Assembly: GCA_022797295.1 (NCBI GenBank) | Contig: JAAWKH010000001.1 | Location: 62,001 to 126,000, forward strand | Length of the DNA: 64,000 nucleotides | Source: Peptococcaceae bacterium | GTDB lineage: Bacteria; Bacillota; Dehalobacteriia; UBA4068; UBA4997 | Reading direction: 5' to 3' | Part shown: in pieces, positions 1-14,427 of the stretch | Numbering within the stretch: position 1 is the first letter of the stretch | Layout of the letters: every line of letters starts with the position of its first letter | Program-made: the position numbers and the translations under genes | The notes under the pieces: generated by a model | Told to the model about the DNA's origin: nothing | Databases searched by the model: none | Seen by the model: only the letters and a program-made list of their open reading frames with translations

Positions 1-214
1 GAATGGTAATGCCCAAGCTGGCTGGCAGGGCTATGCTTTGTAGTAGGGCTTTGCTTTCGGCGGAGGCAGTGGCCGGGTCGGTGAGGGCCGGGGCAATTTC
101 CTGTGGATACACTTTGCCGTATTCATCCACCGCGTAAGCGGGCGCGGCGCATAAAAGTAGGCCTAGCAGGCATATTAGTAGGGTTAGGCGAGCCAATGAT
201 TTGGTAAGTAACAT
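1..214 (-). CDS. Secreted protein, N-terminal part only (gene runs off the window)
   Basis: Translation from the ATG complementary to 212-214 gives a basic start, a long Leu-rich hydrophobic stretch ending in an A-P-A-Y-A signal-peptidase-I-like site near residue 29, then a mature start VDEYGKVYPQEIAPALTD. A purine-rich AAAGGATG ribosome-binding site precedes the ATG. Only about 71 codons are in the window, so the function cannot be named; it is probably an exported protein. It is separated from metQ by a hairpin and appears to have its own promoter. Confidence 0.7.
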   Translation of the reverse strand, partial: MLLTKSLARLTLLICLLGLLLCAAPAYAVDEYGKVYPQEIAPALTDPATASAESKALLQSIALPASLGITI

Positions 215-243
215 AAAAAACACATCCTTTCACTTTTGGTTAA

Positions 244-272
244 ATTATAGCATAAAAAAGGATATAAGTAAA
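244..272 (-). promoter_or_regulatory. Sigma-A-type promoter for the secreted-protein gene
   Basis: On the minus strand TTTACT (267-272) is followed after 17 bases by a perfect TATAAT (244-249), about 30 bases before the ATG at 214. The -35 matches consensus only in part. Confidence 0.5.
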
Positions 273-276
273 GCAA

Positions 277-305
277 AAGCCCCCGTGCCGTTAGCACAGG
301 GGCTT
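277..305 (-). terminator. Intrinsic terminator after metQ
   Basis: A 12-bp stem with one mismatch (277-288 against 294-305) around a 5-base loop lies just past the metQ stop. On the minus strand it is followed by a T-rich tract (CTTTTGCTTT). Confidence 0.75.
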
Positions 306-316
306 AAAATAGTTAA

Positions 317-1156
317 TTAAAATACAGTCTGAACGTTGCCATTGTAGGTTTCGTTGATGTAATTTTTAACAGTATCGCTGCACAGGGCTTCGGCCAGGGC
401 TTTCAGCTTAGGATCTTCCTCGTTGCCTTCTTTAATAGTCAGCACGTTGGCATAGTTGGTGGCAGCCAGGGAATCGGCAGCTTCGGAAACCAGCGCGTCG
501 GTAGCGGCGGACAACTCAGCCTGCAAAGCATAGTTGCCGTTGATTACCGCCATATCCAAATCAACCAGAGTGCGAGGCAACAGAGCAGCTTCCATCTCGT
601 TGAACTTCAGGTTCTTCGGATTGTCGGTCACGTCAAAAGGAGTGGCTTTCAGACCAGCTTCAGGGTCCAGAGTAATCAGGCCGGCAGCTTCCAGCAGCAA
701 CAAAGCGCGGGCTTCATTGGTGGGGTCGGAGGGGATACCGATAGTAGCGCCGTCCGGCAGTTCCTCAATGGTGGCAACCTTGCCAGGATACAGGCCCATC
801 GGCTCATAGTGCACCGAAGCCAAAGATACCAGATGGGTGCCGTTGCTTTCATTAAAATCATTCATATAGGTGATATGCTGGAAGTAGTTAGCGTCAATTT
901 CGCCATCCTCCAAAGCAGTGTTGGGGAACACATAATCGTTGTATTCCTTGATTTCCAGCTTGTAGCCTTTTTTAGCCAGGTCATCCTTAATAAGAGCCAA
1001 AATTTCTGCGTGCGGCGTGGGGCTGGCGCCAACTACGATTGGGGTTAGCTCAGTTTGTTGGCCATCTCCCTGCTTGCTGGGCTGGTCGTTGGAGCAGCCG
1101 GCAGCTACCAGCAGAGCAAAGCTCAGCACCAACACAAGTGACAAAAGTTTTTTCAT
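317..1156 (-). CDS. metQ: Methionine ABC transporter substrate-binding lipoprotein
   Basis: 279 residues of the NlpA/MetQ family, which captures D- and L-methionine at the outer face of the membrane and delivers it to MetI. A lipoprotein signal peptide ends in V-A-A-G-C with Cys21 as the lipidation site. The mature part carries family segments such as VVGASPTPHAEIL, a YFQH segment and an IGIPSDPTNEARALLLLE stretch. A strong AGGAGG site precedes the start. It is the last gene of metN-metI-metQ and lies 162 bases after metI, a gap holding two hairpins that could raise its expression or stabilise its mRNA relative to the other two genes (inference). Confidence 0.93.
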   Translation of the reverse strand: MKKLLSLVLVLSFALLVAAGCSNDQPSKQGDGQQTELTPIVVGASPTPHAEILALIKDDLAKKGYKLEIKEYNDYVFPNTALEDGEIDANYFQHITYMNDFNESNGTHLVSLASVHYEPMGLYPGKVATIEELPDGATIGIPSDPTNEARALLLLEAAGLITLDPEAGLKATPFDVTDNPKNLKFNEMEAALLPRTLVDLDMAVINGNYALQAELSAATDALVSEAADSLAATNYANVLTIKEGNEEDPKLKALAEALCSDTVKNYINETYNGNVQTVF

Positions 1157-1220
1157 TGCAAAATCCTCCTGAAAAATATAAATTAAAAATTTGAATAGAT
1201 TAATTATATAATAAATTTAA

Positions 1221-1280
1221 GCAAAAAGCTAGTCTTTTGCTGTGAATTTATACCATAAAAATTATAAAACATTTTTATGG
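1221..1280 (-). other. Two hairpins between metI and metQ
   Basis: GCAAAA (1221-1226) pairs with TTTTGC (1235-1240). A perfect 9-bp inverted repeat, 1253-1261 against 1272-1280, follows. Both are AT-rich and neither has a clear T tract in the minus direction, so processing or stabilisation is as likely as attenuation. Confidence 0.45.
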
Positions 1281-1318
1281 AAAGGTATAGATTTTGCTTA
1301 TAGGTTTTTGCTGCGTAC

Positions 1319-1978
1319 CTAAAGGCGCTTATCTAATTTGCGGGCCAGCCTGGTGCCAGCCTCCTGGAAAATCTGCACGATAATTACCAGCAAAATAACG
1401 GAAAGGTTCATAATTTCAGATTGATATTTATATAAGCCATAGTTTACGGCAATCTTGCCCAGGCCGCCGCCGCCGCAGAAGCCGGCCATAGCGGTGTAAC
1501 CCAAAATGGTGGTAATCGTAATTGCAAAACCAATCAACAGCGAGGGGCGGGCTTCGCCCAGCATAACCTTAGTGATGATTTTGCCGGTGGGCGCTCCCAT
1601 AGATTGGGCTGCTTCAATAATGCCGTGGTCAACCTCCTTGATAGAGCTTTCCACCATTCGGGCCACAAAGGGAGCGGCGGCTACAACCAGGGGAACGATT
1701 AAGCCGCGGTTGCCAGTGGCGGTGCCCACCAGATGCCTGGTAAACGGCATCATCCAAACCATTAAAATAAGGAAAGGAACAGAGCGGAGTATGTTTATAA
1801 TAATTCCCAAGCTGGTGTTTATTGCTTTGTTTGGGTGGATGCCGTCCTTATCAGTGAGCACCAGAATAATGCCCAACGGCAGGCCCAAAGCATAGGCCGC
1901 AACGGTGCTTACCAGCGTTAAGTATAAGGTGGTTACGGTTTCAGACGCCAAAAGGTTAATCAAGGTTTCCGTGTTCAT
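1319..1978 (-). CDS. metI: Methionine ABC transporter permease
   Basis: 219 residues with about five hydrophobic segments. The cytoplasmic EAA loop reads EAAQSMGAPTGKIITKV, the segment that docks on the MetN ATPase. Length and order are as expected for MetI. Its start overlaps the metN stop by four bases (ATGA-type), implying translational coupling. With MetN and MetQ it forms the high-affinity methionine importer of the cytoplasmic membrane. Confidence 0.93.
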   Translation of the reverse strand: MNTETLINLLASETVTTLYLTLVSTVAAYALGLPLGIILVLTDKDGIHPNKAINTSLGIIINILRSVPFLILMVWMMPFTRHLVGTATGNRGLIVPLVVAAAPFVARMVESSIKEVDHGIIEAAQSMGAPTGKIITKVMLGEARPSLLIGFAITITTILGYTAMAGFCGGGGLGKIAVNYGLYKYQSEIMNLSVILLVIIVQIFQEAGTRLARKLDKRL

Positions 1979-3015
1979 TGAGCATTCACCTCCCAGTTTT
2001 CGTCAGCCGTCAGCTCTTCTGCATTTAACCCTTGGGCTCGCAGATAACTCAGCATTTTGTTGGCAATGTCCGGGTCATCTGGCATTTGCAGCACAATTTG
2101 GCCAAATGCTTTGCCGTCAATGTTCTTGCTGTTGGCAAAGATAATGTTCACCGGTTGTTTAAACTGCAATATCATATTGGCAATATGCGGCTCAAATGAG
2201 GATTGGCCGTCATAAATTACCCGACAGCAATTTTTATTCAGCATAGTTTGCACATTATTATGCTTGGGGAAAACAAAGGATTTGGCAATATCGCTGTTGG
2301 GGTGGGCGAAGATTTCTCGCACCTCGCCGCATTCGGCAATCCGGCTTTTGTCGATGATGGCCACTCGCTGGCAGATTTTTTCTACCACGTTCATCTCATG
2401 AGTAATGATAACAATGGTAATACCCAGTTGCTTGTTAATCTCTTTCAGCAAATCCAGCACCGAGCGAGTGCTGGCAGGATCCAGCGCGGAGGTTGCCTCG
2501 TCGCAGAGTAACACCTGTGGGTTGGTGGCCAGGGCGCGGGCGATGGCCACCCGTTGTTTTTGGCCGCCGGAAAGCTGGGAGGGATAAGCGTTTGCTTTGT
2601 CGGAAAGGCCAACCAGCTCCAGCAGCTCCAGTGCGCGTTTGCGAGCCTCCTCCTTAGGTGTTTTGACAATTTCCAGTGGGAAACAGATGTTTTGTAATGC
2701 GGTTTTTTGCATTAGCAGGTTAAACTGCTGGAATATCATCCCAATAGAATGGCGCGCTTCATTAAGGCCCTGCTGGGAGAGTTCGCCCAGCTCCAGCCCG
2801 TTGACGAAAACCTCGCCTGATGTGGGGCGTTCCAGATAATTGATACAACGCACCAAAGTGCTTTTGCCTGCGCCGGAAAGCCCAATAATGCCAAAGATTT
2901 CCCCAGGCATTATTTCCAGATTAATGTTGTTTAGGGCGTGAACCGCGGTTTCACCCTTGCCATAAGTTTTGCTTAAATTTTGCAGGCGGATAATGGCCGA
3001 TTGATTAGCCGTCAT
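1975..3015 (-). CDS. metN: Methionine ABC transporter ATPase with NIL domain
   Basis: 346 residues. An N-terminal ABC ATPase domain (about 1-245) has Walker A GLSGAGKST, the signature LSGGQKQR, Walker B LLCDEATSALD and switch His in ITHEM. The C-terminal roughly 80 residues match the NIL (ACT-like) domain that binds methionine and trans-inhibits the importer. It is the first gene of the operon; a TTGCAA/TATAAT promoter lies about 50 bases upstream. No S-box (SAM-I) leader is visible in the short region between promoter and start, so if the operon is methionine-regulated the mechanism is not evident here. Confidence 0.94.
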   Translation of the reverse strand: MTANQSAIIRLQNLSKTYGKGETAVHALNNINLEIMPGEIFGIIGLSGAGKSTLVRCINYLERPTSGEVFVNGLELGELSQQGLNEARHSIGMIFQQFNLLMQKTALQNICFPLEIVKTPKEEARKRALELLELVGLSDKANAYPSQLSGGQKQRVAIARALATNPQVLLCDEATSALDPASTRSVLDLLKEINKQLGITIVIITHEMNVVEKICQRVAIIDKSRIAECGEVREIFAHPNSDIAKSFVFPKHNNVQTMLNKNCCRVIYDGQSSFEPHIANMILQFKQPVNIIFANSKNIDGKAFGQIVLQMPDDPDIANKMLSYLRAQGLNAEELTADENWEVNAQ

Positions 3016-3062
3016 TGGTGATAGACACCGCCTTTCCTGATATTTTGTTAAACGTAACCTAT

Positions 3063-3092
3063 ATTATATCATACCTTAACCCAAATTTGCAA
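3063..3092 (-). promoter_or_regulatory. Promoter of the metNIQ operon
   Basis: On the minus strand TTGCAA (3087-3092) is followed after 18 bases by a perfect TATAAT (3063-3068). The start of metN is 48 bases downstream. Confidence 0.6.
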
Positions 3093-3205
3093 TAAAAATC
3101 GTCAATTATTAATTTGGGGGAAATAATAAGAGAAAAAGAGGTTTAGCAGCCTAAATGCCGAATGCTACATTTAATATATTTAATATGTAAAGGAGCTGTT
3201 TGAAT

Positions 3206-4144
3206 ATGAAAAAAAATTTTAGCCTCTGGAAAAATATGTTTTGCTTGTTAGGAATAACCTTGTGCTTTGGTTTGGCAGGTTGCGCCAAGGATGAGCTATC
3301 GGCCAATCTGGATGAGCAGGCGGATGCTCCCGTTTTGTTATATTACTATAATGGAATTATCACTGCGGATGGTGAGTTGCTTTTTCCGCCCTGTGATAAG
3401 GAATATCGTATTTTGCAGGATAAACAAAATCGCCAGTGTTATGTGCTGGAAACGGAAAAACAAATTGACCCCAAGCGTTTAACCTATTACGGCGAGCCTT
3501 TGCTGGTTGGTTGCACTTTCCATATTTACGATGTGCAGGGCCGGCTGCAAAAGGAACTTTCTGTGCAGGCGGAGGGCAGCGTGGATGAGGCGGTGAGTTT
3601 TTACTTTGCGCCGGACGGCAGCTTGGAAAAAAGCTGCATTTTGGTGAACCGTTTGCTGACGGAGGGCAGGTTGCAAATTCTGGATTGCGATGGTAATGTT
3701 TTGTTGAATGAACAGATTGTTCCGCAGGAGGAATTGGCAAAATGGCAAAATGGCTATGCGCATTTGGAGGTGGCGGAAAATTTTATAAGAGTTTTTTATG
3801 ATTTGTATAGTAATGATGGTGATATGAAAAATGGCGGTCAGTTCTATGACCTGAACGGTCAGCCTTTGGAAATGGCCCAGGACTACAATTACACTTATAA
3901 TATGTATGATGAATATAACGGTTGTGTTTCTGGTTATTATGTGGCCAGTTATGTGGGGCCGCAGGGGCAAGATGTGTATGATGTGCTGAATAGCAATGGG
4001 CAGGTGGTTATTTCCGGCTTGACCTTTGTGGGGAATTTTTCAAACGGCTATTTGGTGGTGCAGCAGGGTTTTAGCCGTGGTCTGATGGATGTGCAGGGTA
4101 ATTGGGTTTATCAGGAATCACAGTTCACAGAGTTGGAGGATTAA
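3206..4144 (+). CDS. Tandem-family lipoprotein 1 (single module, YDxxG/WG-like repeats)
   Basis: About 312 residues; a lipoprotein signal peptide ends L-A-G-C at Cys26. The ATG at 3206 fits AGGAG at 3191 better than the upstream TTG. First of five neighbouring paralogues. The mature protein follows the family scheme: a YYNGII...GELLFPP opening, then short units centred on aromatic-D-x-x-G (YDVQGRL, LDCDGNVLLNEQ, YDLNGQPLEM, LNSNGQVVISGL) and a C-terminal GFSRGLMDVQGNWVYQES block ending in Leu-Glu-Asp. The repeat spacing suggests a beta-propeller-like fold related to WG repeats (inference). Expected on the outer face of the membrane. Function unknown. Its signal peptide differs from those of copies 3-5. 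Confidence 0.75.
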   Translation: MKKNFSLWKNMFCLLGITLCFGLAGCAKDELSANLDEQADAPVLLYYYNGIITADGELLFPPCDKEYRILQDKQNRQCYVLETEKQIDPKRLTYYGEPLLVGCTFHIYDVQGRLQKELSVQAEGSVDEAVSFYFAPDGSLEKSCILVNRLLTEGRLQILDCDGNVLLNEQIVPQEELAKWQNGYAHLEVAENFIRVFYDLYSNDGDMKNGGQFYDLNGQPLEMAQDYNYTYNMYDEYNGCVSGYYVASYVGPQGQDVYDVLNSNGQVVISGLTFVGNFSNGYLVVQQGFSRGLMDVQGNWVYQESQFTELED

Positions 4145-4145
4145 A

Positions 4146-5900
4146 ATGCGTAGATTGGTGATAGTGGCTTGTTTTCCAGCTTTGCTAGTGTTGCTGGGGC
4201 TGGCTGGTTGTGCTGAACAGATGGCGGAGGTAGAGCCGGGCCTGGTAATGTACCAGGATGATATTTTCAACACAGAGGGCGTGCGGATTACTGATTTGCA
4301 GCCAGACCAATCAGTAAAAATTCTTTGTGACCAAAATGGCCGTCAATGTTACGCTTTGCTGATTGAAGATAATTATGTGCTGCTGGAGCAGCAACGCTGG
4401 CTGGTGACTTTAGGCGAACCATCGGCTGACCCCGTGGCCGGTTTGCAGCCATTTGACCAGGTCGTTAAAAAGTACGATCTGGACAGCCGGATAACTGGCC
4501 GCAGCTTCCGTTTTTACGATTGCCGCGGCCAGCTTCAGCACACGATACAGATTGACGCGGCGCTTCCCGGTCCGGCGGATTTGGAGTTTTACTTTGCCCC
4601 AGACGGCGATTTGCAGAAAAGCCTTTTTTTGGTGAACAGGTTGAAAACCGAGGGGAAATATCAGCTGCTGGATATTGACGGTAATTTACTGGTGGAAAAG
4701 CAGTTGACGCCGCTCGGTCAGCCAATGCAGCCTGCGGATTTAAGACTTGGTACGCATATTGAATTGGTGCTGGGTGAGGAATTTGTGGCCTTGAATTACG
4801 CTTTTTACGATATGCTGGCGGCCTCCAACTCTTGCAAGCAGCTTGATGTTTACGATTTGCAGGGCAGGCCGCTGCCTATGCTGCAGGTCTATGACGAGTT
4901 GGAGCAGTTGGCGGGAACATCGCTTTACAAGGCGCATTATCGTAATGAAAAAGGCCGTCACCGCTATGACGTATTGGATGACAAGGGGCAGGTGTATTTG
5001 GCTAATTTGCTGAGAGTTGAGCATATTGGTAAGCAAGTGCTGGAGCTGCAACAGGGCTGGGGCGATTTGACCACCGGTCTGGCTGATTTGCAGGGCCGCT
5101 GGCTGAAGCCTGATTTGTGGGGCTTAAACCGGCCCTTGCAGGTTTTTTATTACAATGGCGATGTTTACAACACCTACGGCAAGCTGATTGCGAAAAATAA
5201 AGATATGGTGCCGGACGGGCAGGATATTGGTTTGGATATTTTGGGAGATAAATATGTGCTGGCTACGGAATATTTTTATCCTGAGAACAGTGACTGGGCG
5301 TGGAGCCGGCCGCAGCCCACTGCTTGCCAGCTTACTTTGTATGACGCTCACGGACGGCAGCTTTGGCAGCAGCCGCTGACATACACGGGGGCTAATCTGG
5401 TTCTTACGCCGTTGGGGAAATATGGACTGTTGAATTACCAGGCCCGGCTTTGGCTGGAGCGGGAGGTTAAACAGCCATATAAATTAGGCGTTATTGATTT
5501 GTTTTTGACGGATTATTTTGTGGTCGTGAAGCATTCGGAATTTGATGAGGAATTGCAGACCCAGCACGATTATGTAACTGTTTACGATTGGCTGGGCAAG
5601 GCCTTGCCAATGCCCAGAGAATATGTCTATTTGAACAACTTTTATGTTTGGGACTGGTGGCTTTATCAGAATCTTGAAGAACAAGTGAAATTTTTTGAAG
5701 CCGGCTATAAACTGCCGAATGGTCAGTGGTTGTTTGATGTTTTGGATGAGCGCGGCCGGCAGTGTCTGAGCGATTTGCAGCAGGTTGATTATCTGGGCCA
5801 GAGTGTTTTTGCGGTGCGCAAGGGGTTCAGCCGCGGCCTGATGAATGAAAAGGGCGAATGGTTGTATCAGGAAAGCATTTTTGTCGATTTGGAGGATTAA
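4146..5900 (+). CDS. Tandem-family lipoprotein 2 (double module)
   Basis: 584 residues from the ATG at 4146, one base after the preceding stop; the GGAGG that serves it lies inside the last codons of gene 1. The signal peptide ends G-L-A-G-C at Cys22. The body holds two family modules: roughly residues 30-330 (FYFAPDGDLQKSLFLVNRL, LLDIDGNLLVEKQL, YDLQGRPLPML, TGLADLQGRW) and 335-584, which restarts with FYYNGDVYNTYGKLIAK and ends with the GFSRGLMNEKGEWLYQES block and Leu-Glu-Asp. The doubling looks like fusion or duplication of single-module genes. Presumed surface lipoprotein, function unknown. Confidence 0.75.
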   Translation: MRRLVIVACFPALLVLLGLAGCAEQMAEVEPGLVMYQDDIFNTEGVRITDLQPDQSVKILCDQNGRQCYALLIEDNYVLLEQQRWLVTLGEPSADPVAGLQPFDQVVKKYDLDSRITGRSFRFYDCRGQLQHTIQIDAALPGPADLEFYFAPDGDLQKSLFLVNRLKTEGKYQLLDIDGNLLVEKQLTPLGQPMQPADLRLGTHIELVLGEEFVALNYAFYDMLAASNSCKQLDVYDLQGRPLPMLQVYDELEQLAGTSLYKAHYRNEKGRHRYDVLDDKGQVYLANLLRVEHIGKQVLELQQGWGDLTTGLADLQGRWLKPDLWGLNRPLQVFYYNGDVYNTYGKLIAKNKDMVPDGQDIGLDILGDKYVLATEYFYPENSDWAWSRPQPTACQLTLYDAHGRQLWQQPLTYTGANLVLTPLGKYGLLNYQARLWLEREVKQPYKLGVIDLFLTDYFVVVKHSEFDEELQTQHDYVTVYDWLGKALPMPREYVYLNNFYVWDWWLYQNLEEQVKFFEAGYKLPNGQWLFDVLDERGRQCLSDLQQVDYLGQSVFAVRKGFSRGLMNEKGEWLYQESIFVDLED

Positions 5901-5903
5901 ACA

Positions 5904-6824
5904 ATGCGAAAATGGATTATAGCGTTCAGCCTGCTTGCAGCGCTGCTGGGGCTGGCTGGCTGCGGTCAGTCTACTCCGAATGCTCATGTGCAAAATAATA
6001 ATCTTGAGGAAAAATTGCCGGTTTTACTGGCTTATAAAAATGGTGTTATCAACAGCGAGGGGCAAATAATCTTCCCGCCGGATTCTTCAAATTGTGCTTA
6101 TCAGATATGGCAGGACTGTGAGGGACGGCAGCTTTATGTTTTGGCAGAGGAACGAACCTATTCAGATACTTTGCTAGACGGATATAATGAGCCATTGGTG
6201 ATTGCCAAAAAATTTACGGTTTATGAAAATCCGGGCTGGCGTATCCTGAAGCAGGTTCAGGCTCCAGGCAACCAGACGAACTGTCAAATATTTTTGGATG
6301 GCAATTTGGACAAAAGTCTTGTTATGGTTAATTTGTTAAAGAATGAGCATAAATACCAGCTGCTTGATATGGACGGCGGTTTGCTGGTGGAAAAGCAGCT
6401 GGAGCCTTATGCCGAAGTGGGGCAGGCCTATACCAGCCTTTGTCTGGCAGACGATTTTTTGGCCGTCAATTATTATATTTACGATTTGGACTATAACTGC
6501 ACCAGCGGCGTTGATGTTTACGATTGGCAGGGCCAGCCTTTGGCGCTGGCGCGGGATTATAAATATATCTGGCGGCAAAGCTACTGGTTTTCTGGTGATT
6601 TTTTTGAAACGAAATATTATTGTGCAACCTATCAGGTTACGCCAGACAAGGAGCTTTGTGATATTTTGGACAGTCAGGGGCAGGTTTTGCTTAGCGGCCT
6701 GCGAGATGTGAACTGTGTTGGGCCAGGCCTCTTTTTGGTAGAGGATGGGTTCAGTCGCGGTTTGGTGAACGATAAGGGCGAATGGTTGTATCAGGAAAGC
6801 ATTTTTGATGGTTTGGAGGATTAA
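5904..6824 (+). CDS. Tandem-family lipoprotein 3 (single module)
   Basis: 306 residues; signal peptide MRKWIIAFSLLAALLGLAGC with Cys20, shared almost base for base with copies 4 and 5. One module: AYKNGVINSEGQIIFPP, then VMVNLLKNEHKYQLLDMDGG, VYDWQGQPLALARDYKYI, DILDSQGQVLLSGL and the closing GFSRGLVNDKGEWLYQES...LED. It starts three bases after gene 2, using GGAGG embedded in that gene's final codons. It is a 924-bp unit bounded on both sides by roughly 115-bp near-identical boundary sequence, so it could be lost or multiplied by homologous recombination (inference). Function unknown. Confidence 0.75.
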   Translation: MRKWIIAFSLLAALLGLAGCGQSTPNAHVQNNNLEEKLPVLLAYKNGVINSEGQIIFPPDSSNCAYQIWQDCEGRQLYVLAEERTYSDTLLDGYNEPLVIAKKFTVYENPGWRILKQVQAPGNQTNCQIFLDGNLDKSLVMVNLLKNEHKYQLLDMDGGLLVEKQLEPYAEVGQAYTSLCLADDFLAVNYYIYDLDYNCTSGVDVYDWQGQPLALARDYKYIWRQSYWFSGDFFETKYYCATYQVTPDKELCDILDSQGQVLLSGLRDVNCVGPGLFLVEDGFSRGLVNDKGEWLYQESIFDGLED

Positions 6825-6827
6825 GCA

Positions 6828-8561
6828 ATGCGAAAATGGATTATAGCGTTCAGTCTGCTTGCGGCCCTGCTGGGGCTGGCGGGCTGCGGCGGGCCGAAAG
6901 CGGAGGTTGGTTTGGCGGAGCAGCCATATCTTTTTAACTGGTTTGATAACAGTATTGTCGTAAACGCTAATGGCGAGCGTATTTTAGGGCCGGGGCGCGA
7001 CGGGGAATATACTATTTGGGAGGATTGCTATGGGCAGCAACGGTATATTTTGGCGCAGGAGAGCGTTTTGGCGGAGTATGAGCTGGGCTTTTGTGGTCGG
7101 CCCTGGCTGATTAGCGAAAAAATTACAGTATACGATTTGCAGGGGCGGTTGCTGAAAAATCTACAGGTTGAGGATGGCAAAACTTATTGGACGATTTATC
7201 CTGATGGTGATTTGCAGAAGAGCCTGCTTTTGCTGGATCGGGCCATAGGTGAGCAGCCGCAATACCAGGTTTTTGATTTTGACGGCAACCTGCTGCTGGA
7301 AAAGCCATTGACACAGGCAATCGGGGCTAGTGACAGTGAGAGTAATTTGTGCTTGGCAGAGGATTTTTTTGCAGTGGTTGTTCATTTATATTATGATGAC
7401 AAGCCGGCGGAAACGGTTTTAGACGTTTATAATTGGCAGGGTCAGCCTTTGGCTTGGGGGCAGGATTACGTCTACATAAGCTATGTTGATTATGTAGACG
7501 GTATGGGTTCGGCGGATAATCCTTATTATAATGCAGTGCGTCAGGACGCGCAGGGCAATGAGGAGCATTTGATATTGGACGGCCAGGGGCAGGCGCTGCT
7601 TTCCAGCCCAGATGAATTTTTCTATCTGGGTGATGATTTGTTTTTTGTGCGCTTAAATGAGCATTTTGGCATTGTCAACAAGCAGGGGCAATGGCTTTAT
7701 CCACAGAAAAAGCAGCCGCATATTCAGCAAGCGGAGGCAGATAAATCAAAGATTTATACAATTTACGGTTCTGGCATTGTTATTAATGGCGCGGGCGAAT
7801 TGGTTTTGGACTTGCAGGATGAGGTTTATGATTATTACATTCTGACAAACACCCAAAAGGAGCCGCAGGGCATTTTTGTCTGCAAAAATTTTTTTGACGA
7901 AAGCAGAGTAAATGAATACGGCACGGCGTATCATGTGGAAAATCAATATTATTTTTATGACCTTAATGGGGTTTTGCAGCACCAGCTGACCTTGCCGGTG
8001 CAGGGTTATCTTGCGGATAACAATTACTTCCAGGCCGCTTTGGATGGTGATTGGCGGCATAGTCTGTTTTTCGTCAGCAATTTGCAAAGCGCTGGTTCAT
8101 ATCAGGTTTTGGATATAAACGGCAGGCTTTTGCTTGAAAAACAGCTTTGCAATCCGGCTGAGCAGGGAGATTGCTATGCCCATATGAGATTGACGGATAA
8201 ATATATCATTGTAACTTATGTTCTTTATGCTAAGGAGCCTGACGAAACCGGCTGGTATCCCTTTGTCCAGCAAACCGACCTTTACCGGTTGGACGGGCAG
8301 CCGGTGGAGCTGCCCAAGCCTTATAATGATGTTGGCGAGATTGTGGATACTGAAAGCGGAGAAATTATCGGTTACTGGGGCAATTTGTCTTCTGGCGAGG
8401 AGGATTTGCTAGATAGAAATTTGCAGGTTTTGTTCAGCGGCAGATATGTGAGCAATGAAGTCATCCAGGGTCTGCTTCAGGCGGAGCAGGACGGGCAACG
8501 CGGCCTGATTGATATGCAGGGCAACTGGATTTATCGGGAGCCATTGCCAGAGGAGGATTAA
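6828..8561 (+). CDS. Tandem-family lipoprotein 4 (double module)
   Basis: 577 residues; lipobox L-A-G-C at Cys20. Two modules, about 25-285 (VYDLQGRLLKNLQVED, FDFDGNLLLEKPL, YNWQGQPLAWGQDY, ILDGQGQALLSS, GIVNKQGQWLYP) and 295-577 (IYGSGIVINGAGELVLD, YDLNGVLQHQL, LDINGRLLLEKQL, LDRNLQVLFSG, GLIDMQGNWIYREP). The end is Pro-Glu-Glu-Asp rather than Leu-Glu-Asp, yet the codons still give GGAGGA in front of the next start. Each module closes with a WG-like G-I/L-V/I-x-x-x-G-x-W motif. Exported and membrane-anchored; role unknown. Confidence 0.74.
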   Translation: MRKWIIAFSLLAALLGLAGCGGPKAEVGLAEQPYLFNWFDNSIVVNANGERILGPGRDGEYTIWEDCYGQQRYILAQESVLAEYELGFCGRPWLISEKITVYDLQGRLLKNLQVEDGKTYWTIYPDGDLQKSLLLLDRAIGEQPQYQVFDFDGNLLLEKPLTQAIGASDSESNLCLAEDFFAVVVHLYYDDKPAETVLDVYNWQGQPLAWGQDYVYISYVDYVDGMGSADNPYYNAVRQDAQGNEEHLILDGQGQALLSSPDEFFYLGDDLFFVRLNEHFGIVNKQGQWLYPQKKQPHIQQAEADKSKIYTIYGSGIVINGAGELVLDLQDEVYDYYILTNTQKEPQGIFVCKNFFDESRVNEYGTAYHVENQYYFYDLNGVLQHQLTLPVQGYLADNNYFQAALDGDWRHSLFFVSNLQSAGSYQVLDINGRLLLEKQLCNPAEQGDCYAHMRLTDKYIIVTYVLYAKEPDETGWYPFVQQTDLYRLDGQPVELPKPYNDVGEIVDTESGEIIGYWGNLSSGEEDLLDRNLQVLFSGRYVSNEVIQGLLQAEQDGQRGLIDMQGNWIYREPLPEED

Positions 8562-8564
8562 GCA

Positions 8565-9983
8565 ATGCGAAAATGGATTATAGCGTTCAGTCTGCTTGCG
8601 GCCCTACTGGGGCTGGCGGGCTGCGGCGGGCCGGAGGAGCAGGCGGCGACTCCTGCTATATGCTATTACAATGGAAGCTATTATAATTCTGAGGGGCAAA
8701 AGCTGGTGGAATTCGGCACGGACTGTCGAATTTTATGTGACGCCCAAGGCCATTCCTGCTATTTGTTGCAGAAATTGGGTTCTAGCTTTAAGATTTATGA
8801 CGTTTACGGCCAGTTGGTGCAAACTGTGGAGTTGCAGCAGGCGGTTCCTGATTCCGGCACGGCGTGGTTTTACTTTGCGCCGGACGGCAATTTATCTAAG
8901 AGCGTTTTTGTGCTAGATTTGCTACGCCAGGAGGGCCACTATCAGCTGTTGGATATTGAGGGCAATGTGCTGGTGGATAAGCCCCGACAGCTGCTGCGGC
9001 AGGGGTATGACGACAAGCTGCAGCTCAGCGTTATTGCTACGGATAGTTTTGTGGCTGTGAGTTATAATGATTTTAACCCGGCAACCCAGCTGGATAGAAC
9101 AAGTTATCTGGATATATACGATTGGCAGGGGCAACAGTTTGAAACTGAGCACGATTATTTTGAGCTGATGCCGCTGGGCGGTTTTAGATACGCGGATTTG
9201 CCATTTTACCTGGCCCATTATCGCAACAAAAATGGTTATTTGCGTTATGATATTTTGAATGCCCAGGGCCAAGTGCAGCTGGCTAATTTAAGCCTGGTGG
9301 ATTATTTGGGCGGCGGTGTGCTGGCGATTACGCTTGGTTGGGGCGATATGCGCAGTGGTTTTGCGGATTTGCAGGGGCGCTGGCTGGACGGCGGCCTGAT
9401 GAATTTAGGCCGGGAGTTGCGGATTTTCTACAGCGATAGCGGCATTTACAACACCAACGGCCTGTTGATTGCCGATAAGCAATTTTGGGCGGTGGACGGA
9501 GTTCAGCGGATGGCGCGGATAGTTAATAATCAGGTTTTGGTGGCGGAAACCTGTTCGGAGGCGGCGGATTTTCAGCCGACAATTTGTCGGCATTGTATTT
9601 ATGACGTATGGGGGCGGCTGCTGTTGCAGGAGGAGCATGAGCTGCTGGAGGGGGAAACCTGTTTTTGGTTTTCCGACATTTCATATGATAAGCCGAAGCT
9701 GCCCAAAAGGGTTTTGCAGAAATATCAGGATATTCGGGTTTTATATGATGAGTATGGTTTTGAACCATCCGGCCATTTTTACGCTTCTTTTGAAAATCCC
9801 TCCGAGAGATTTCAGTTTGATGTTTTGGACTCTCTTGGGCGGGTTGTTTTGACCAACGTTAAGAGTGCGGAATATCTTGGGCAGGATATTTTTGAGGTGC
9901 AGCAGGGATTTAGCCGCGGTTTGATGAATTGTAAGGGCGAATGGCTGTTTAGGGAGTCTGTTTTTGCCGATTTAGAGGATTAA
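8565..9983 (+). CDS. Tandem-family lipoprotein 5 (one and a half to two modules)
   Basis: 472 residues; the signal peptide DNA is almost identical to copy 4 (one difference over about 69 bases by eye). The first module (YYNGSYYNSEGQKLVE, IYDVYGQLVQTVE, FYFAPDGNLSKSVFVLDLL, LLDIEGNVLVDK, IYDWQGQQFETE, SGFADLQGRWLDGG) leads into a shorter second one (FYSDSGIYNTNGLLIADK, IYDVWGRLLLQEE, VLDSLGRVVLTN, GFSRGLMNCKGEWLFRES, LED). Last of the five. The next gene has its own GGGAGG site 24 bases after this stop, so the embedded-RBS scheme ends here although Leu-Glu-Asp is still present. Confidence 0.74.
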   Translation: MRKWIIAFSLLAALLGLAGCGGPEEQAATPAICYYNGSYYNSEGQKLVEFGTDCRILCDAQGHSCYLLQKLGSSFKIYDVYGQLVQTVELQQAVPDSGTAWFYFAPDGNLSKSVFVLDLLRQEGHYQLLDIEGNVLVDKPRQLLRQGYDDKLQLSVIATDSFVAVSYNDFNPATQLDRTSYLDIYDWQGQQFETEHDYFELMPLGGFRYADLPFYLAHYRNKNGYLRYDILNAQGQVQLANLSLVDYLGGGVLAITLGWGDMRSGFADLQGRWLDGGLMNLGRELRIFYSDSGIYNTNGLLIADKQFWAVDGVQRMARIVNNQVLVAETCSEAADFQPTICRHCIYDVWGRLLLQEEHELLEGETCFWFSDISYDKPKLPKRVLQKYQDIRVLYDEYGFEPSGHFYASFENPSERFQFDVLDSLGRVVLTNVKSAEYLGQDIFEVQQGFSRGLMNCKGEWLFRESVFADLED

Positions 9984-10013
9984 AGAGATATTGAGAAACG
10001 GGAGGTATTGATT

Positions 10014-10922
10014 ATGAGAAAATTTTTAGTTGTGCTGCTGCTGTTGTTGTGCGCTATGGGGCTGGCGGCCTGTAATGAGCAGAAGCCTGCTGAGCCGAAT
10101 GGCGGCCAGACCGGCGAAGCCCTGCTGAAGCTGGAGGAATATCCGCGGGTGGATGGCTCCACCGCCAATTTGCCGATGATGGCTCAAATTATGGCAGATA
10201 GTGTGGGGATTACTCTGGCGGAGGCAGAACAGCTGACCAGCTGCCGTAAAACGGCTGACGCTTGGCTAGCTTTGGCAGAGGGCGATGCAGACCTGCTGTT
10301 GGTTTATGAGGCGGCGGAGATGACCAAGCAGCAGTTGGCGGAAATTGGCACTGAGCTGACGATTGAGCCGATTGGCCGGGACGCTTTGGTGTTTATCGTC
10401 AATGAGGATAATCCGGTGCAAAGCTTAACTCAGGAGCAGTTGATTGGCATTTACAGCGGTGAGATTACCAACTGGAGCGAGGTTGGCGGGGATGATTTGC
10501 CGATTGTTCCGTTTCAGCGGCCGGATGAAAGCGGCAGCCAAAGCCTGTTTGTAAAGCTGCTTATGCAGGGGCGGCAGCCAATGGAAGCGCCGACGGAATT
10601 TCGTCCGGCGGAAATGGGCGGCCTGATTGAACAGCTTGCTTCCTATAATAATAGCGCCGACGCTTTAGGTTATTCTGTTTTCTATTATGCTTCTTATATG
10701 TATCAGCAGCCTGGCCTGCGCTTTTTGGCTGTTGATGGGGTGCTGCCAAGTGATGAAAGCATTGCCGATGGCAGTTATCCGCTGCTTAATGAATATTATC
10801 TGGCAGTGCGCAGCGCTGATTTGGTGGATGAACAATCCCCGGTGAGCAAGCTTTATCGCTGGATTTTGTCGGACGATGGCAAGCAGTCCATTCGACAAGC
10901 CGGCTACATTCCGCTCGATTAA
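10014..10922 (+). CDS. PstS-like substrate-binding lipoprotein
   Basis: 302 residues. The ATG at 10014 is 8 bases after GGAGG (10001-10005); a TTG six bases earlier is too close to that site. The signal peptide ends G-L-A-A-C at Cys20 and resembles those of the upstream lipoproteins. The mature part is a PBP-like domain of the phosphate-binding (PstS) superfamily: VDGSTANLPMM near the N-terminus, then VQSLTQEQLIGIYSGEITNW, then VPFQRPDESGSQSLF. No pstC, pstA or pstB is nearby, so it is an orphan binding protein or a sensor. Its position, 30 bases after the lipoprotein array and on the same strand, suggests co-transcription. Its ligand is unproven. Confidence 0.8.
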   Translation: MRKFLVVLLLLLCAMGLAACNEQKPAEPNGGQTGEALLKLEEYPRVDGSTANLPMMAQIMADSVGITLAEAEQLTSCRKTADAWLALAEGDADLLLVYEAAEMTKQQLAEIGTELTIEPIGRDALVFIVNEDNPVQSLTQEQLIGIYSGEITNWSEVGGDDLPIVPFQRPDESGSQSLFVKLLMQGRQPMEAPTEFRPAEMGGLIEQLASYNNSADALGYSVFYYASYMYQQPGLRFLAVDGVLPSDESIADGSYPLLNEYYLAVRSADLVDEQSPVSKLYRWILSDDGKQSIRQAGYIPLD

Positions 10923-10988
10923 GGAGAGAATGGCGCGCCTTTTGCTGGTCTGTGTATAAATTTGCCTCAAAAAAGCGGCTTACAATCA

Positions 10989-11060
10989 GTTGTCAACAAC
11001 CTTTTCCACATTTTCCACAGGTAAAGCCTGTGGATTGTTGGGGGAAAGTGGTGTGGAAAT
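10989..11060. promoter_or_regulatory. Cluster of four DnaA-box-like 9-mers between the lipoprotein operon and hpf
   Basis: Within the 302-base gap 10923-11224, TTTTCCACA occurs twice back to back (11002-11010, 11011-11019) and two inverted copies follow, TGTGGATTG (11029-11037) and TGTGGAAAT (11052-11060). Each differs from TTATCCACA at one to three positions. GTTGTCAACAAC sits just upstream. No dnaA or dnaN is nearby, so a minor DnaA-binding or titration site is more likely than the origin. The rest of the gap holds the hpf promoter region. Confidence 0.4.
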
Positions 11061-11162
11061 TTGCTAAAAAATGTCGGCAGCGCTGTTTGGCTGACTAAAT
11101 AGGGAATTTTTGTGTAAAAAGCAAATCTTTTTGCGCGTCTGGCAGGATTTTGCGCCTTAAAA

Positions 11163-11197
11163 TATAATTAATATACTGACAACCAAATCTTGGTTGT
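11163..11197 (+). promoter_or_regulatory. hpf -10 element and leader hairpin
   Basis: A perfect TATAAT at 11163-11168 has no good -35 partner. Just downstream ACAACCAA (11179-11186) and TTGGTTGT (11190-11197) form a perfect 8-bp stem with a 3-base loop, ending about 14 bases before the AGGAGGG ribosome-binding site. It would be at or near the 5' end of the mRNA and could be an operator or a stabilising hairpin. Confidence 0.4.
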
Positions 11198-11224
11198 TAA
11201 TATAGTAACCAGGAGGGACGATTT

Positions 11225-11743
11225 ATGAACATTAATGTAAGATCCAGAAAGAATGATGTGACGCCGGCAATGCGTGAATATGCCGAAAAGCGTCTGCGTA
11301 AATTTGACAAAATGCTGGGCGGTGTGGATGACGTTTCAGTTTTGCACGATGTAGTTAAGGATACGCACACGGTGGAGGTAACCATCAATGTGGATGGGGT
11401 TATCCTGCGCAGCGAGGTTTCCAGTTTGGATATGTATGTTTGCGTTGACCAAGCTGTTGACAAGCTGGAGCGCCAAGTGCGCAAGCATAAAACCCGTTTG
11501 GAAAAACGTTTCCGCAAGGAAGCGCAAAAGGCTTCTATGCAGGAATTGGAGGCCTTGCCGAATGAGCAAAAGCTGGTGCGCACCAAGCGTTTTGATAAAA
11601 AGCCTTTGGATGTGGACGAGGCCATCAGCCAGATGGAGCTTTTGGGCCACAACTTCTTCGCTTTTGTGAATGCAGAAACTGACGAAATCAATATTGTTTA
11701 CAAGCGCAAGGATGAAAATTATGGCTTGTTGCAGCCTGAATAA
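11225..11743 (+). CDS. hpf: Ribosome hibernation promoting factor, long form
   Basis: 172 residues, the length of long-form HPF, which dimerises idle 70S ribosomes into 100S particles. The N-terminal domain (about 1-100) opens with MNINVRSRKNDVTPAMREYAEKR, rewritten here in part as the S30AE start, and carries basic rRNA-contacting residues. After a linker rich in Lys and Glu, the C-terminal dimerisation domain (about 115-172) includes VRTKRFDKKPLDVDEAI, QMELLGHNFFAF and INIVYKRKDENYGL. A strong AGGAGGG site precedes the ATG. Monocistronic, closed by a terminator. Confidence 0.93.
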   Translation: MNINVRSRKNDVTPAMREYAEKRLRKFDKMLGGVDDVSVLHDVVKDTHTVEVTINVDGVILRSEVSSLDMYVCVDQAVDKLERQVRKHKTRLEKRFRKEAQKASMQELEALPNEQKLVRTKRFDKKPLDVDEAISQMELLGHNFFAFVNAETDEINIVYKRKDENYGLLQPE

Positions 11744-11759
11744 AGATTAGTTAAAACCT

Positions 11760-11792
11760 CCCTCAGTCAGCAGACTGGGGGATTGTTTTTTT
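11760..11792 (+). terminator. Intrinsic terminator after hpf
   Basis: A 9-bp GC-rich stem (11760-11768 against 11773-11781, one G-T pair) is followed by ATTGTTTTTTT. Confidence 0.85.
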
Positions 11793-11884
11793 CAGAAATT
11801 TGTTGTTGTAATTATACGACTGACAAAATTGGCTAAAAACGCCTAAAATCACTTATTATCACTCATTCTTAGTCAATATTCTCC

Positions 11885-11912
11885 GCAGGAAAAAAGCAGC
11901 GGGCGGGCGAAA
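11885..11912 (+). promoter_or_regulatory. Sigma-H-type promoter of the spoIIA operon
   Basis: GCAGGAAAA (11885-11893) fits the sigma-H -35 pattern RnAGGAwWW. After 12 bases GGCGAAA (11906-11912) fits RnnGAAT except at the last base. The spoIIA operon is a known sigma-H target in Bacillus, and the site lies 38 bases before spoIIAA. Confidence 0.6.
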
Positions 11913-11949
11913 CCTTATAGCAGCTTAATCAACAGAGGAGGCTGTGTTT

Positions 11950-12309
11950 ATGAGCTTTGGCTTTCAGATTAAGGATAACACGGTTTGGGCTTCAATCAGC
12001 GGCGAGGTGGACATGCAGATTGCCAGCCTTTGGCGCGAGGCATTGGAACAGCAGCTGAACAGCACCTTGGCCCGCAATTTAACCTTTGATTTTACCGGCG
12101 TGCGCTTTATTGATAGCTCCGGCCTTGGCGTGGTGTTGGGCCGTTACAAAAGGGTGGCCAGCCGCGGCGGCCGGGTGCGGATTGTTGGCGCTGGCCCGCA
12201 GGTTTACAAAATTTTGCAGTTATCCGGCTTTGCCGGCCTGATGGAAATTGAGCCGCCCGCCGGGTTGGAAGACCAGGAGGCCGGGCGGCAGGCAGGAGGG
12301 CGGATGTGA
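11950..12309 (+). CDS. spoIIAA: Anti-sigma-F factor antagonist
   Basis: 119 residues, a single STAS domain. The phosphorylatable serine lies in RFIDSSGLGV (D55-S-S-G58), the equivalent of Bacillus Ser58. Unphosphorylated SpoIIAA binds SpoIIAB and frees sigma-F in the forespore. AGGAGG (11936-11941) lies 8 bases before the ATG at 11950 and only 2 before an upstream GTG, so the ATG is preferred. First gene of spoIIAA-spoIIAB-sigF. The C-terminal tail after about residue 103 is Gly/Glu-rich and extra. Confidence 0.93.
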   Translation: MSFGFQIKDNTVWASISGEVDMQIASLWREALEQQLNSTLARNLTFDFTGVRFIDSSGLGVVLGRYKRVASRGGRVRIVGAGPQVYKILQLSGFAGLMEIEPPAGLEDQEAGRQAGGRM

Positions 12310-12806
12310 TGCGTGATAAGGCAATGGGATGTTCCGTTTTGGCATATGAAGAGCCAGAATTGAAATATGGCGAGTTGCTGAATAAGTTGCATTTGGATTT
12401 TGCAGCGCACAGTGAAAATGTGGCTTTGGCTCGTTCTCTGGTGGCGGCGTTGATTGCCAACTGCCAGCAGGCGGAGTGGGACATCACCCTTTCTGCTTTG
12501 GAGGAAATCAAGGTGGCTGTTTCAGAGGCTGTGTCCAATGCAATTATTCACGGTTATCAGGGGGAGCCTGGCCGTAGTGTACATATGGAGCTGCTTTTGT
12601 ATCAGTATGCTTTGCAGGTTAAGGTTTGCGATGATGGCGTGGGGATTGCCGATGTGCAGCAGGCAATGGAGCCGGAGTTTACCACCGGCGAGGAGCATCT
12701 GGGCTTGGGCTTTGCTTTTATGAGCTCTTTTATGGATGATGTGCAAGTGGATTCCCAGCTGGGCTGCGGCACCACCGTGACCATGTTGAAAAGAATTCAT
12801 CAATAG
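12309..12806 (+). CDS. spoIIAB: Anti-sigma-F factor, serine kinase
   Basis: 165 residues, some 20 longer than the Bacillus protein because of an N-terminal extension (MRDKAMGCSVLAYEEPELKY). It has GHKL/HATPase_c motifs: N box EAVSNAIIHGY, G1 box CDDGVGI and GLGFAFMSSFMDD. It binds sigma-F in the predivisional cell and phosphorylates SpoIIAA. The ATG overlaps the spoIIAA stop by one base and follows AGGAGGG by 7 bases, so translation is probably coupled. A shorter protein starting at the internal Met is possible. Confidence 0.92.
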   Translation: MRDKAMGCSVLAYEEPELKYGELLNKLHLDFAAHSENVALARSLVAALIANCQQAEWDITLSALEEIKVAVSEAVSNAIIHGYQGEPGRSVHMELLLYQYALQVKVCDDGVGIADVQQAMEPEFTTGEEHLGLGFAFMSSFMDDVQVDSQLGCGTTVTMLKRIHQ

Positions 12807-12815
12807 TGGCTGCCC

Positions 12816-13559
12816 ATGGCTAAGGAGAATATTGTCCTAAATGAGGAGCCGGAGATTTGGCAGCAGGTGCAATCCGGCAGCGCGGCGGAGCGGGCGGAGG
12901 CCAGGGAACGTTTGGTGGAGGCTAATATGCAGCTGGTTTTTTGGCTGGCTCGCCGTTTTGTTGGCCGTGGCTGTGATTGGGAGGACCTTTGCCAGATTGG
13001 CACCATTGGTTTGTTGAAAGCTATCGACCATTTTCAGCCGGCTTATAAAAACCGTTTTTCCACATATGCTGTGCCGATGATTTTAGGCGAGCTGCGTCGG
13101 GCTATTCGGGACGACGGCCTGTTGCACGTCAGCCGTTCCTACAAGGAGCGAATGGCCAAAATTATGCAGGCAAGTCAACGTTTTTTAGAGGAACAGGGGC
13201 GTGAGCCAACTATTTCTGAGCTGGCCTGTTTGCTTGATTTACCACAGGAACAGATTGTACTTGCTTTGGAGGCCAACCAACGCCCACTTTCTTTGCAAAC
13301 GCCTTTAGATAACCAGGATGGCGGCGAGGCTACCTTGCAGGAATTGGTGCCGGCGGCGGAGGGCGAGGATAACTGGGTGCAAAGTTTGGCTTTGCAGCAG
13401 GCCTTTGCCCGTTTGCCGGAACGCCTGTGTTATATTATGGAGGCTCGTTACTTTAAGGAACAAACGCAGCAACAGATTGCCAAGAGCTTGGGAGTTTCTC
13501 AGGTTCAGGTGTCCAGATTGGAAAAGCAGGCTTTGCGCTTGTTGCGTGATTATTTGTGA
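12816..13559 (+). CDS. sigF: Forespore RNA polymerase sigma-F factor
   Basis: 247 residues with sigma-70 regions 2, 3 and 4. Region 2 includes RRFVGRGCDWEDLCQIGTIG and LLKAIDHFQP; region 3 contains GREPTISELACLLD; the region 4 helix-turn-helix is QQIAKSLGVSQVQVSRLEKQ. Third gene of the spoIIA operon, nine bases after spoIIAB, which fixes it as sigma-F rather than sigma-G or sigma-B. It directs the first forespore-specific transcription. Confidence 0.92.
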   Translation: MAKENIVLNEEPEIWQQVQSGSAAERAEARERLVEANMQLVFWLARRFVGRGCDWEDLCQIGTIGLLKAIDHFQPAYKNRFSTYAVPMILGELRRAIRDDGLLHVSRSYKERMAKIMQASQRFLEEQGREPTISELACLLDLPQEQIVLALEANQRPLSLQTPLDNQDGGEATLQELVPAAEGEDNWVQSLALQQAFARLPERLCYIMEARYFKEQTQQQIAKSLGVSQVQVSRLEKQALRLLRDYL

Positions 13560-13630
13560 TTTTTCCACTAAAAATGTGTTTATATAATTTAGAATCTTTC
13601 AATTTTAATCTATCCCAATAATTCCCAGAG

Positions 13631-13668
13631 AGAACACATCGCTGACCGTTAGGTTGGCGGTGTGTTCT
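13631..13668 (+). terminator. Long hairpin after sigF, probable terminator
   Basis: 17 pairs including three G-T wobbles (13631-13647 against 13652-13668) close over a GTTA loop. The 3' side is followed by TGCTTAATG, so there is no clear T tract and another role is possible. Confidence 0.5.
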
Positions 13669-13791
13669 TGCTTAATGCCTTACTGGTTGCCCGGATAGTT
13701 TTTGGAAAAATTTGCGCTGAAAATAAAGGAAAAACGCGCCGTAAAGAGAATTAATATTAGATTAAACGAAAAAAATAATGGGGTTGAATTT

Positions 13792-14427
13792 ATGTTTGAT
13801 TTTTTTAACAATATTAACTGGCTGGAACTGGCTTTTTCTGTGCCGGCTTTGATGTTGGCGCTGACTTTTCACGAGTTTAGCCACGGTTTAGTCGCGTCCA
13901 TTTTGGGAGATGACACGCCGCGGGCGCAAGGCCGGCTGACCTTAAACCCAATCCGGCATTTGGATCCGGTTGGTACTTTGATGTTGTTTTTGTTCCGTTT
14001 TGGTTGGGCCAAACCGGTGGAGGTGGACGCCCGTAATTTTCGCGTTAACTACAAGCTGGGCATGGCTTTGGTTGCAGTGGCTGGGCCGCTTTCCAATATT
14101 TTGCTGGCCCTGTTTTCAGCCTACTGTATCAGCTTCATTAACAGCGGTTTAATCCCATCTAATATCTATTTTTCGGCATTTTTCAATATGTTGATGATGT
14201 ATAACGTTTGTTTTGCGGCTTTTAATATATTGCCATTTCCGCCACTGGACGGTTCAAAGGTTGTGGCCGCCATTGTGCCGGCAAGCTTTGCGGATTTTCT
14301 TTACAGCAACACGCAACTGTTTATGTTGCTTTTGGTGCTGTTCACCACCACGGGCTATGTGGGCAAGTTCATGACGCCCTTGGTGAATTGGTTCTATTAC
14401 TTCATTAATATGCTGGTTTTTGCTTAA
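13792..14427 (+). CDS. Site-2 protease family (M50) membrane metalloprotease
   Basis: About 211 residues from the ATG at 13792; an in-frame start 30 codons upstream would add a basic stretch unlike the family. HEFSH at residues 27-31 is the zinc-binding HExxH, and a C-terminal NILPFPPLDGSKV segment supplies the third ligand of the N/F-P-x-x-D-G type. Five or six hydrophobic segments are seen, as in the YwhC/FtsR-like short S2P proteins found near scpA in Firmicutes. It probably cleaves membrane-embedded substrates; the substrate is unknown. It precedes trpS-scpA-scpB on the same strand. Confidence 0.85.
   Translation: MFDFFNNINWLELAFSVPALMLALTFHEFSHGLVASILGDDTPRAQGRLTLNPIRHLDPVGTLMLFLFRFGWAKPVEVDARNFRVNYKLGMALVAVAGPLSNILLALFSAYCISFINSGLIPSNIYFSAFFNMLMMYNVCFAAFNILPFPPLDGSKVVAAIVPASFADFLYSNTQLFMLLLVLFTTTGYVGKFMTPLVNWFYYFINMLVFA

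Follow-up and report, generated by a model that had tools for sequence, protein, structure and literature searches.

A tandem array of DUF5046 lipoprotein genes is followed by an orphan PstS-like binding-protein gene in a Peptococcaceae genome

We analysed a 64,000-nucleotide stretch of DNA (hereafter the window) from a Peptococcaceae genome (G000). Between positions 3206 and 9983, five consecutive co-directional ORFs on the + strand encode lipoproteins, here called P1 to P5, with only 1-3 bases between each stop codon and the next start. P1 (3206-4144), which holds the first (founder) position in the array, and P3 (5904-6824) contain a single module. P2 (4146-5900), P4 (6828-8561) and P5 (8565-9983) contain two, the second being shortened in P5. 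The next gene, SBP (10014-10922, + strand), starts 30 nt after P5 and encodes an orphan PstS-like substrate-binding lipoprotein of the DGSTANLP...QRPxxSGSQ type. All six proteins carry a signal peptide ending in a lipobox of the form [LV]-x-[GA]-C, namely LAGC in P1-P5 and LAAC in SBP. Divergent from the array lies a methionine-type ABC transporter operon (317-3015; ATPase, permease and binding lipoprotein), which is found beside the array in the genus of the window genome and not at the corresponding loci of families f4, f5 and f57.

The array proteins are 33-40% identical to P1 and BLASTP between them gave pairs down to E=1e-80, so that they are related far beyond chance. A module HMM built from the single-module proteins detected eight copies of one module of about 290 residues, one each in P1 and P3 and two each in P2, P4 and P5, and aligned along the whole length of P3. 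A sequence-only reading of this DNA had described five adjacent exported lipoprotein genes sharing one module, and the ORFs, the LAGC signals and the mutual similarity bear this out; the module is present in each of the five genes, the total being eight rather than five. The core of the repeat had been given as aromatic-D-x-x-G. A repeat of this kind is indeed enriched, but it is better stated as hydrophobic-[DN]-x-x-G, which occurs 5, 12, 6, 13 and 11 times in P1-P5 and 1.4-2.7 times in shuffled versions, an enrichment of three to six times (P = 0.0125, <0.0005, 0.002, <0.0005 and <0.0005, respectively). When the first residue was required to be strictly aromatic, the counts in P1 and P3 were not significant against shuffles. 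The closing block GFSRGL-(M/V) was found literally in P1, P2, P3 and P5 and as a variant, GQRGLIDMQGNWIYRE, in P4. A search of the rest of the window genome with an alignment model found no further copies of the array family.

Comparison with Pfam placed four of the five proteins above the gathering cut-off (25 bits) of DUF5046 (PF16465), with 28.0 bits for P1, 33.3 for P2, 30.6 for P4 and 31.5 for P5. P3 fell just under it, at 23.3 bits, yet aligns over its full length with the other array proteins. The matches lay largely in the C-terminal portion of the profile (175-260 in P1 and 146-254 in P4, for a profile length of 264). Because DUF5046 was above cut-off in four of five cases, the array has a confident match to a described family, and the earlier suggestion that the family was not yet described did not survive. 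To our knowledge, DUF5046 has no assigned function; the family is not mentioned by name in the literature searched, and we found no solved structure related to the array proteins by sequence. The likeness to WG repeats that had been proposed holds for the hydrophobic-D-x-x-G turns and the closing G-x-W, but not for the profile scores, which remained below the WG_beta_rep (PF14903) cut-off of 25.6 bits (P1 20.4, P3 13.4; P2, P4 and P5 not listed). The WG-repeat label is weakly supported for these proteins, and a literature search on WG repeats was uninformative, returning matches on unrelated WG/GW motifs. NCBIfam matches to Type IX sorting domains were dropped, being sub-threshold and overlapping the repeats. 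The window genome also encodes a true WG-repeat protein on contig C35 (L003:724-2667; 112.1 bits, four repeats), whose long C-terminal region has no Pfam match and looks DUF3298-like by eye.

An AlphaFold model of P1, computed from 29 module sequences, was all-beta with about 22 strands (pLDDT 89.4, pTM 0.81), and that of P2 (pLDDT 79.3) repeated one and the same strand pattern in its two halves. In P1 and in each half of P2, successive strands are antiparallel and arranged like blades. Beta-propellers dominated the best Foldseek matches of P1 (E 1e-5 to 1e-3), including WD40, sortilin, TolB, clathrin terminal domain and DUF4221 structures, and propellers were again returned for P2, with low TM-scores. 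Propeller-like blades in the array modules are thus well supported by the predicted structures. The beta-propeller-like fold proposed earlier stands as far as these confident blades and matches go. A closed propeller is not established, because the best TM-score listed was 0.39, a poor global superposition compared with the >0.5 expected for closed propellers; a mismatch in blade number may lower this score, and the blade number itself is likewise not well supported.

The survey of gene order in relatives that the sequence-only reading had called for was carried out with ORF and HMM scans. In 16 of 17 informative loci, SBP immediately follows the DUF5046 gene or genes on the same strand; this conserved partner directly downstream of the array is absent from the earlier reading. 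The paired loci come from eight genomes of the window's genus (family f1), from G012, G015 and G017 (f4), G013 (f5) and G357, G427 and G429 (f57), and from a human-faecal record, MT838100.1, and thus span four families of the phylum plus one human-faecal contig. Two further genomes, G003 and G431, stand outside the 17, as their contigs end before the next gene. The lone exception was G426, where VanY follows DUF5046 and SBP is present elsewhere, unlinked. Apart from the DUF5046-SBP pair, the neighbourhoods in f1, f4/f5 and f57 differ. In a 398-genome sample of the phylum, nine genomes carried DUF5046, and the same nine and no others gave an SBP match above 500 bits, the rest scoring 295 bits or less; as all nine belong to only three genera, they do not represent nine independent events. 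G009, from another genus of the same family as the window genome, has neither DUF5046 nor SBP. In MT838100.1 (L080), SBP lies 12 nt after a canonical, full-length DUF5046 gene (108.7 bits, profile 1-263) and is 47% identical to the SBP of the window. This unverified record was deposited as 'Bacteriophage sp.' from human faeces and carries NTP-transferase, MATE, DUF5046 and SBP genes; it looks like bacterial DNA. The occurrence of the pair almost everywhere that DUF5046 was found suggests a two-part surface binding device, while the pairing can also reflect shared regulation only.

We searched for a Pst transporter to which SBP could belong. SBP matched PF12849 (PBP_like_2) with 107.4 bits and remained below the NCBIfam PstS cut-offs (TIGR02136, 120.2 versus 206.6; TIGR00975, 18.1 versus 205). 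PstC (TIGR02138) was below cut-off in G000, G001, G003 and G005. Five genomes of the genus had a PstC above cut-off, always on another contig and with its own PstS-type protein adjoining. In G000, G001 and G005, the linked SBP was the only PBP_like_2 protein found. The absence of Pst from the window genome is not certain, since this genome is 93% complete; G001, which is 98% complete, also lacks Pst. A partial alignment with solved PstS structures (4gd5, 4q8r) placed an Arg and an SGS/SGT-type motif of SBP at the presumed anion-binding loop, with an Asp upstream; conservation at the loop is partial. These residues would suit accessory scavenging of phosphate or another oxyanion, in which SBP would supply an ABC permease encoded elsewhere and the DUF5046 proteins would gather substrate at the surface. 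We consider this unlikely, given the sub-threshold PstC, the lack of a second PstS-type protein, the separate PstS of those Pst systems that are present and the unmet PstS cut-off. Omp85 was not found in the window genome. The cell is therefore probably monoderm, with the lipoproteins most likely anchored on the outside of its single membrane; export to a diderm surface was rejected on this ground.

Rates of change were determined against the sister species G006, which keeps the array in the same order with one extra gene; a scan of a genome-contig collection returned this one locus only. Flanking genes are 88-96% identical between the two species (dN 0.019-0.068), SBP is 90% identical (dN 0.064) and P2 86%. 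P1, P3, P4 and P5 are only 64, 48, 42 and 59% identical to their counterparts, P4 being the furthest diverged, with dN of 0.23-0.57 and raised dS of 0.9-1.8, values above 1 being near saturation. The raised dS suggests that these copies predate the species split or were replaced independently of it. The dN/dS of the array genes (0.18-0.37) exceeds that of the flanking genes, and does not at these values prove positive selection; the fast change could reflect relaxed constraint.

Genomes of the genus carry between one and six copies of the array family. In the tree, P1 clustered with the genes in first position in G006, G001 and G007 (support 100/99), and at least three independent expansions were apparent, in the G000/G006/G007 line, in G003 and in G005. 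Expansion by duplication, as foreseen from the sequence, is thus supported. Near-identical repeats lie at the gene junctions. The 143-nt repeats (family D4) at the P2/P3 (5823-5965, + strand) and P3/P4 (6747-6889, + strand) junctions, which are 90% identical, comprise the closing block, stop codon, spacer and next signal peptide. A 92-nt repeat (family D2) at the P4/P5 junction (8552-8643, + strand) is 95% identical to 6815-6906, with a third copy at 5891-5982 (84%); these 92-nt copies, at the junctions before P3, P4 and P5, are 84-95% identical. P3, P4 and P5 share their first 21 residues exactly, their mature parts being about 30-40% identical, whereas the signal peptides of the G006 counterparts differ. 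From this we infer that recombination or conversion has recently acted at the junctions.

Other origins and signals were looked for. The G+C content of the array (0.41-0.52) resembles that of its flanks, and recent horizontal transfer was rejected on this ground. No plasmid match was found, a phage-collection search gave MT838100.1 as its sole match, and a scan of viral contigs found no SBP relative; a phage or plasmid origin was rejected, the single phage-collection record looking bacterial. PADLOC returned no match for P1-P5 and SBP, and a known anti-phage defence system was rejected on this basis. No Rfam match to a structured RNA was found in positions 1-14000 of the window, and scans for promoters and terminators gave about as many hits as in shuffled sequence.

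Building on the family membership, lipid-anchor signals, operon-like layout, gene pairing, co-occurrence and rate difference that the sequences establish, we propose that the array and SBP form a transport-independent, lipid-anchored extracytoplasmic two-part binding module, a reading to which we give about an even chance. The constant part would be a periplasmic-binding-protein lipoprotein of the PstS type, no longer in its transporter context, whose ligand is probably phosphate or a phosphorylated or other oxyanion. The variable part would consist of one or more DUF5046 propeller-like lipoproteins, anchored beside SBP on the outer face of the membrane, perhaps in contact with it, and offering changeable binding surfaces. 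The DUF5046 genes would duplicate in tandem and recombine through the near-identical junction repeats, their bodies diverging quickly while SBP is held nearly constant. Such a variable part may face a changing partner outside the cell, for example a polymer, a host, a phage or a rival.

The surface lipid anchor, the repeat architecture, the rapid divergence and the changes in copy number would also suit adhesins, the DUF5046 lipoproteins mainly sticking cells to a substrate or host with SBP as an operon passenger. However, this leaves unexplained why SBP accompanies DUF5046 across families and on a distant gut contig, and why it is so strongly conserved. In addition, Pfam and NCBIfam scans revealed no wall-anchoring domain in P1-P5, and a lipoprotein anchored in the membrane has little reach through the wall of a Gram-positive cell; we regard a mainly adhesive role as improbable.

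More distant SBP relatives have other neighbours. In two f2 genomes, such an SBP adjoins another lipoprotein, one of which (L061) scores for WG repeats (30.3 bits), and still more distant SBPs adjoin lipoproteins that weakly resemble DUF3298 or PdaC. In RsiV, the DUF4163/DUF3298 region is a lysozyme-binding domain (PMC5014341). Together with the lineage-specific expansion, divergence and junction recombination, these PdaC/DUF3298-type neighbours could point to envelope protection or immunity, in which the variable lipoproteins would inactivate attacking enzymes, bacteriocins or phage at the membrane, with SBP as co-receptor or scaffold. We think this quite improbable, as the six proteins had no PADLOC match, no toxin-like gene was seen beside the array and DUF3298 did not reach its Pfam cut-off. 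Plain amplification of a dispensable lipoprotein family under weak selection, with no specific mechanism, would fit the copy numbers and the elevated dN/dS but is very improbable, because all nine genomes of the genus retain at least one copy, the listed copies have no internal stop, the P1-P5 order is kept in G006 and P2 is still 86% identical there.

PstS-like domains were also seen in other settings. In L067-L073, from other members of the phylum, the domain is found at the C-terminal end of larger proteins, several of which carry hydrophobic segments at the N-terminus, which suggests a wider group of membrane-held PstS-like proteins. A G020 protein (L079:1489-3306) combines the domain with an S-layer homology (SLH) region in one fusion, possibly a wall-anchored version of the same theme. 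The gene for a membrane-fused SBP relative of 505 residues (L081, NZ_OL790696.1, 3275-4792; 36.7% identity in the matched part) is flanked by genes resembling those for glycogen phosphorylase and glycerol-3-phosphate dehydrogenase, and three unannotated ORFs (236, 255 and 201 aa) follow; 3347 of 5426 E. coli genomes carry matching DNA on the chromosome.

The two-part binding module could, tentatively, be extended to a widespread and so far undescribed Bacillota surface recognition system, with a PstS-derived constant subunit released from transport, interchangeable lipoprotein partners and arrays diversified by junction-repeat recombination, a generalisation that we find rather doubtful. Its partners, with the same doubt, would be DUF5046 propellers here and WG-type or PdaC/DUF3298-type lipoproteins elsewhere. 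If the two-part module is real, a transport binding protein has been re-used as the fixed part of a rapidly remodelled surface recognition device, and caution would be needed before annotating every PstS-like lipoprotein as phosphate uptake. The pairing with a transporter-less SBP gives a first handle on DUF5046, in the form of a candidate partner and a ligand class.

Compared with known systems, the array represents a named family in tandem and diversified form, and what is new is the SBP partner and the rate contrast. It resembles DUF5046 in scores and in that the canonical member L080 has the same SBP partner, and differs in being a five-gene array with doubled modules and one protein, P3, just below cut-off. 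WG_beta_rep proteins share the hydrophobic-D-x-x-G turns and closing G-x-W, whereas the array is sub-threshold and the true WG protein of the genome is encoded separately. Lipoproteins of the RsiV/PdaC type (DUF4163/DUF3298) likewise adjoin a related PstS-like lipoprotein in other families, but they belong to a different partner family with sub-threshold DUF3298 scores, and their SBPs are much more distant (about 260-295 bits versus >500). Finally, SBP resembles PstS/PBP_like_2 proteins in its PF12849 match and its partial alignment with the solved structures, and differs from them in its NCBIfam scores, in being unlinked to PstC, PstA and PstB, and in having a DUF5046 partner.
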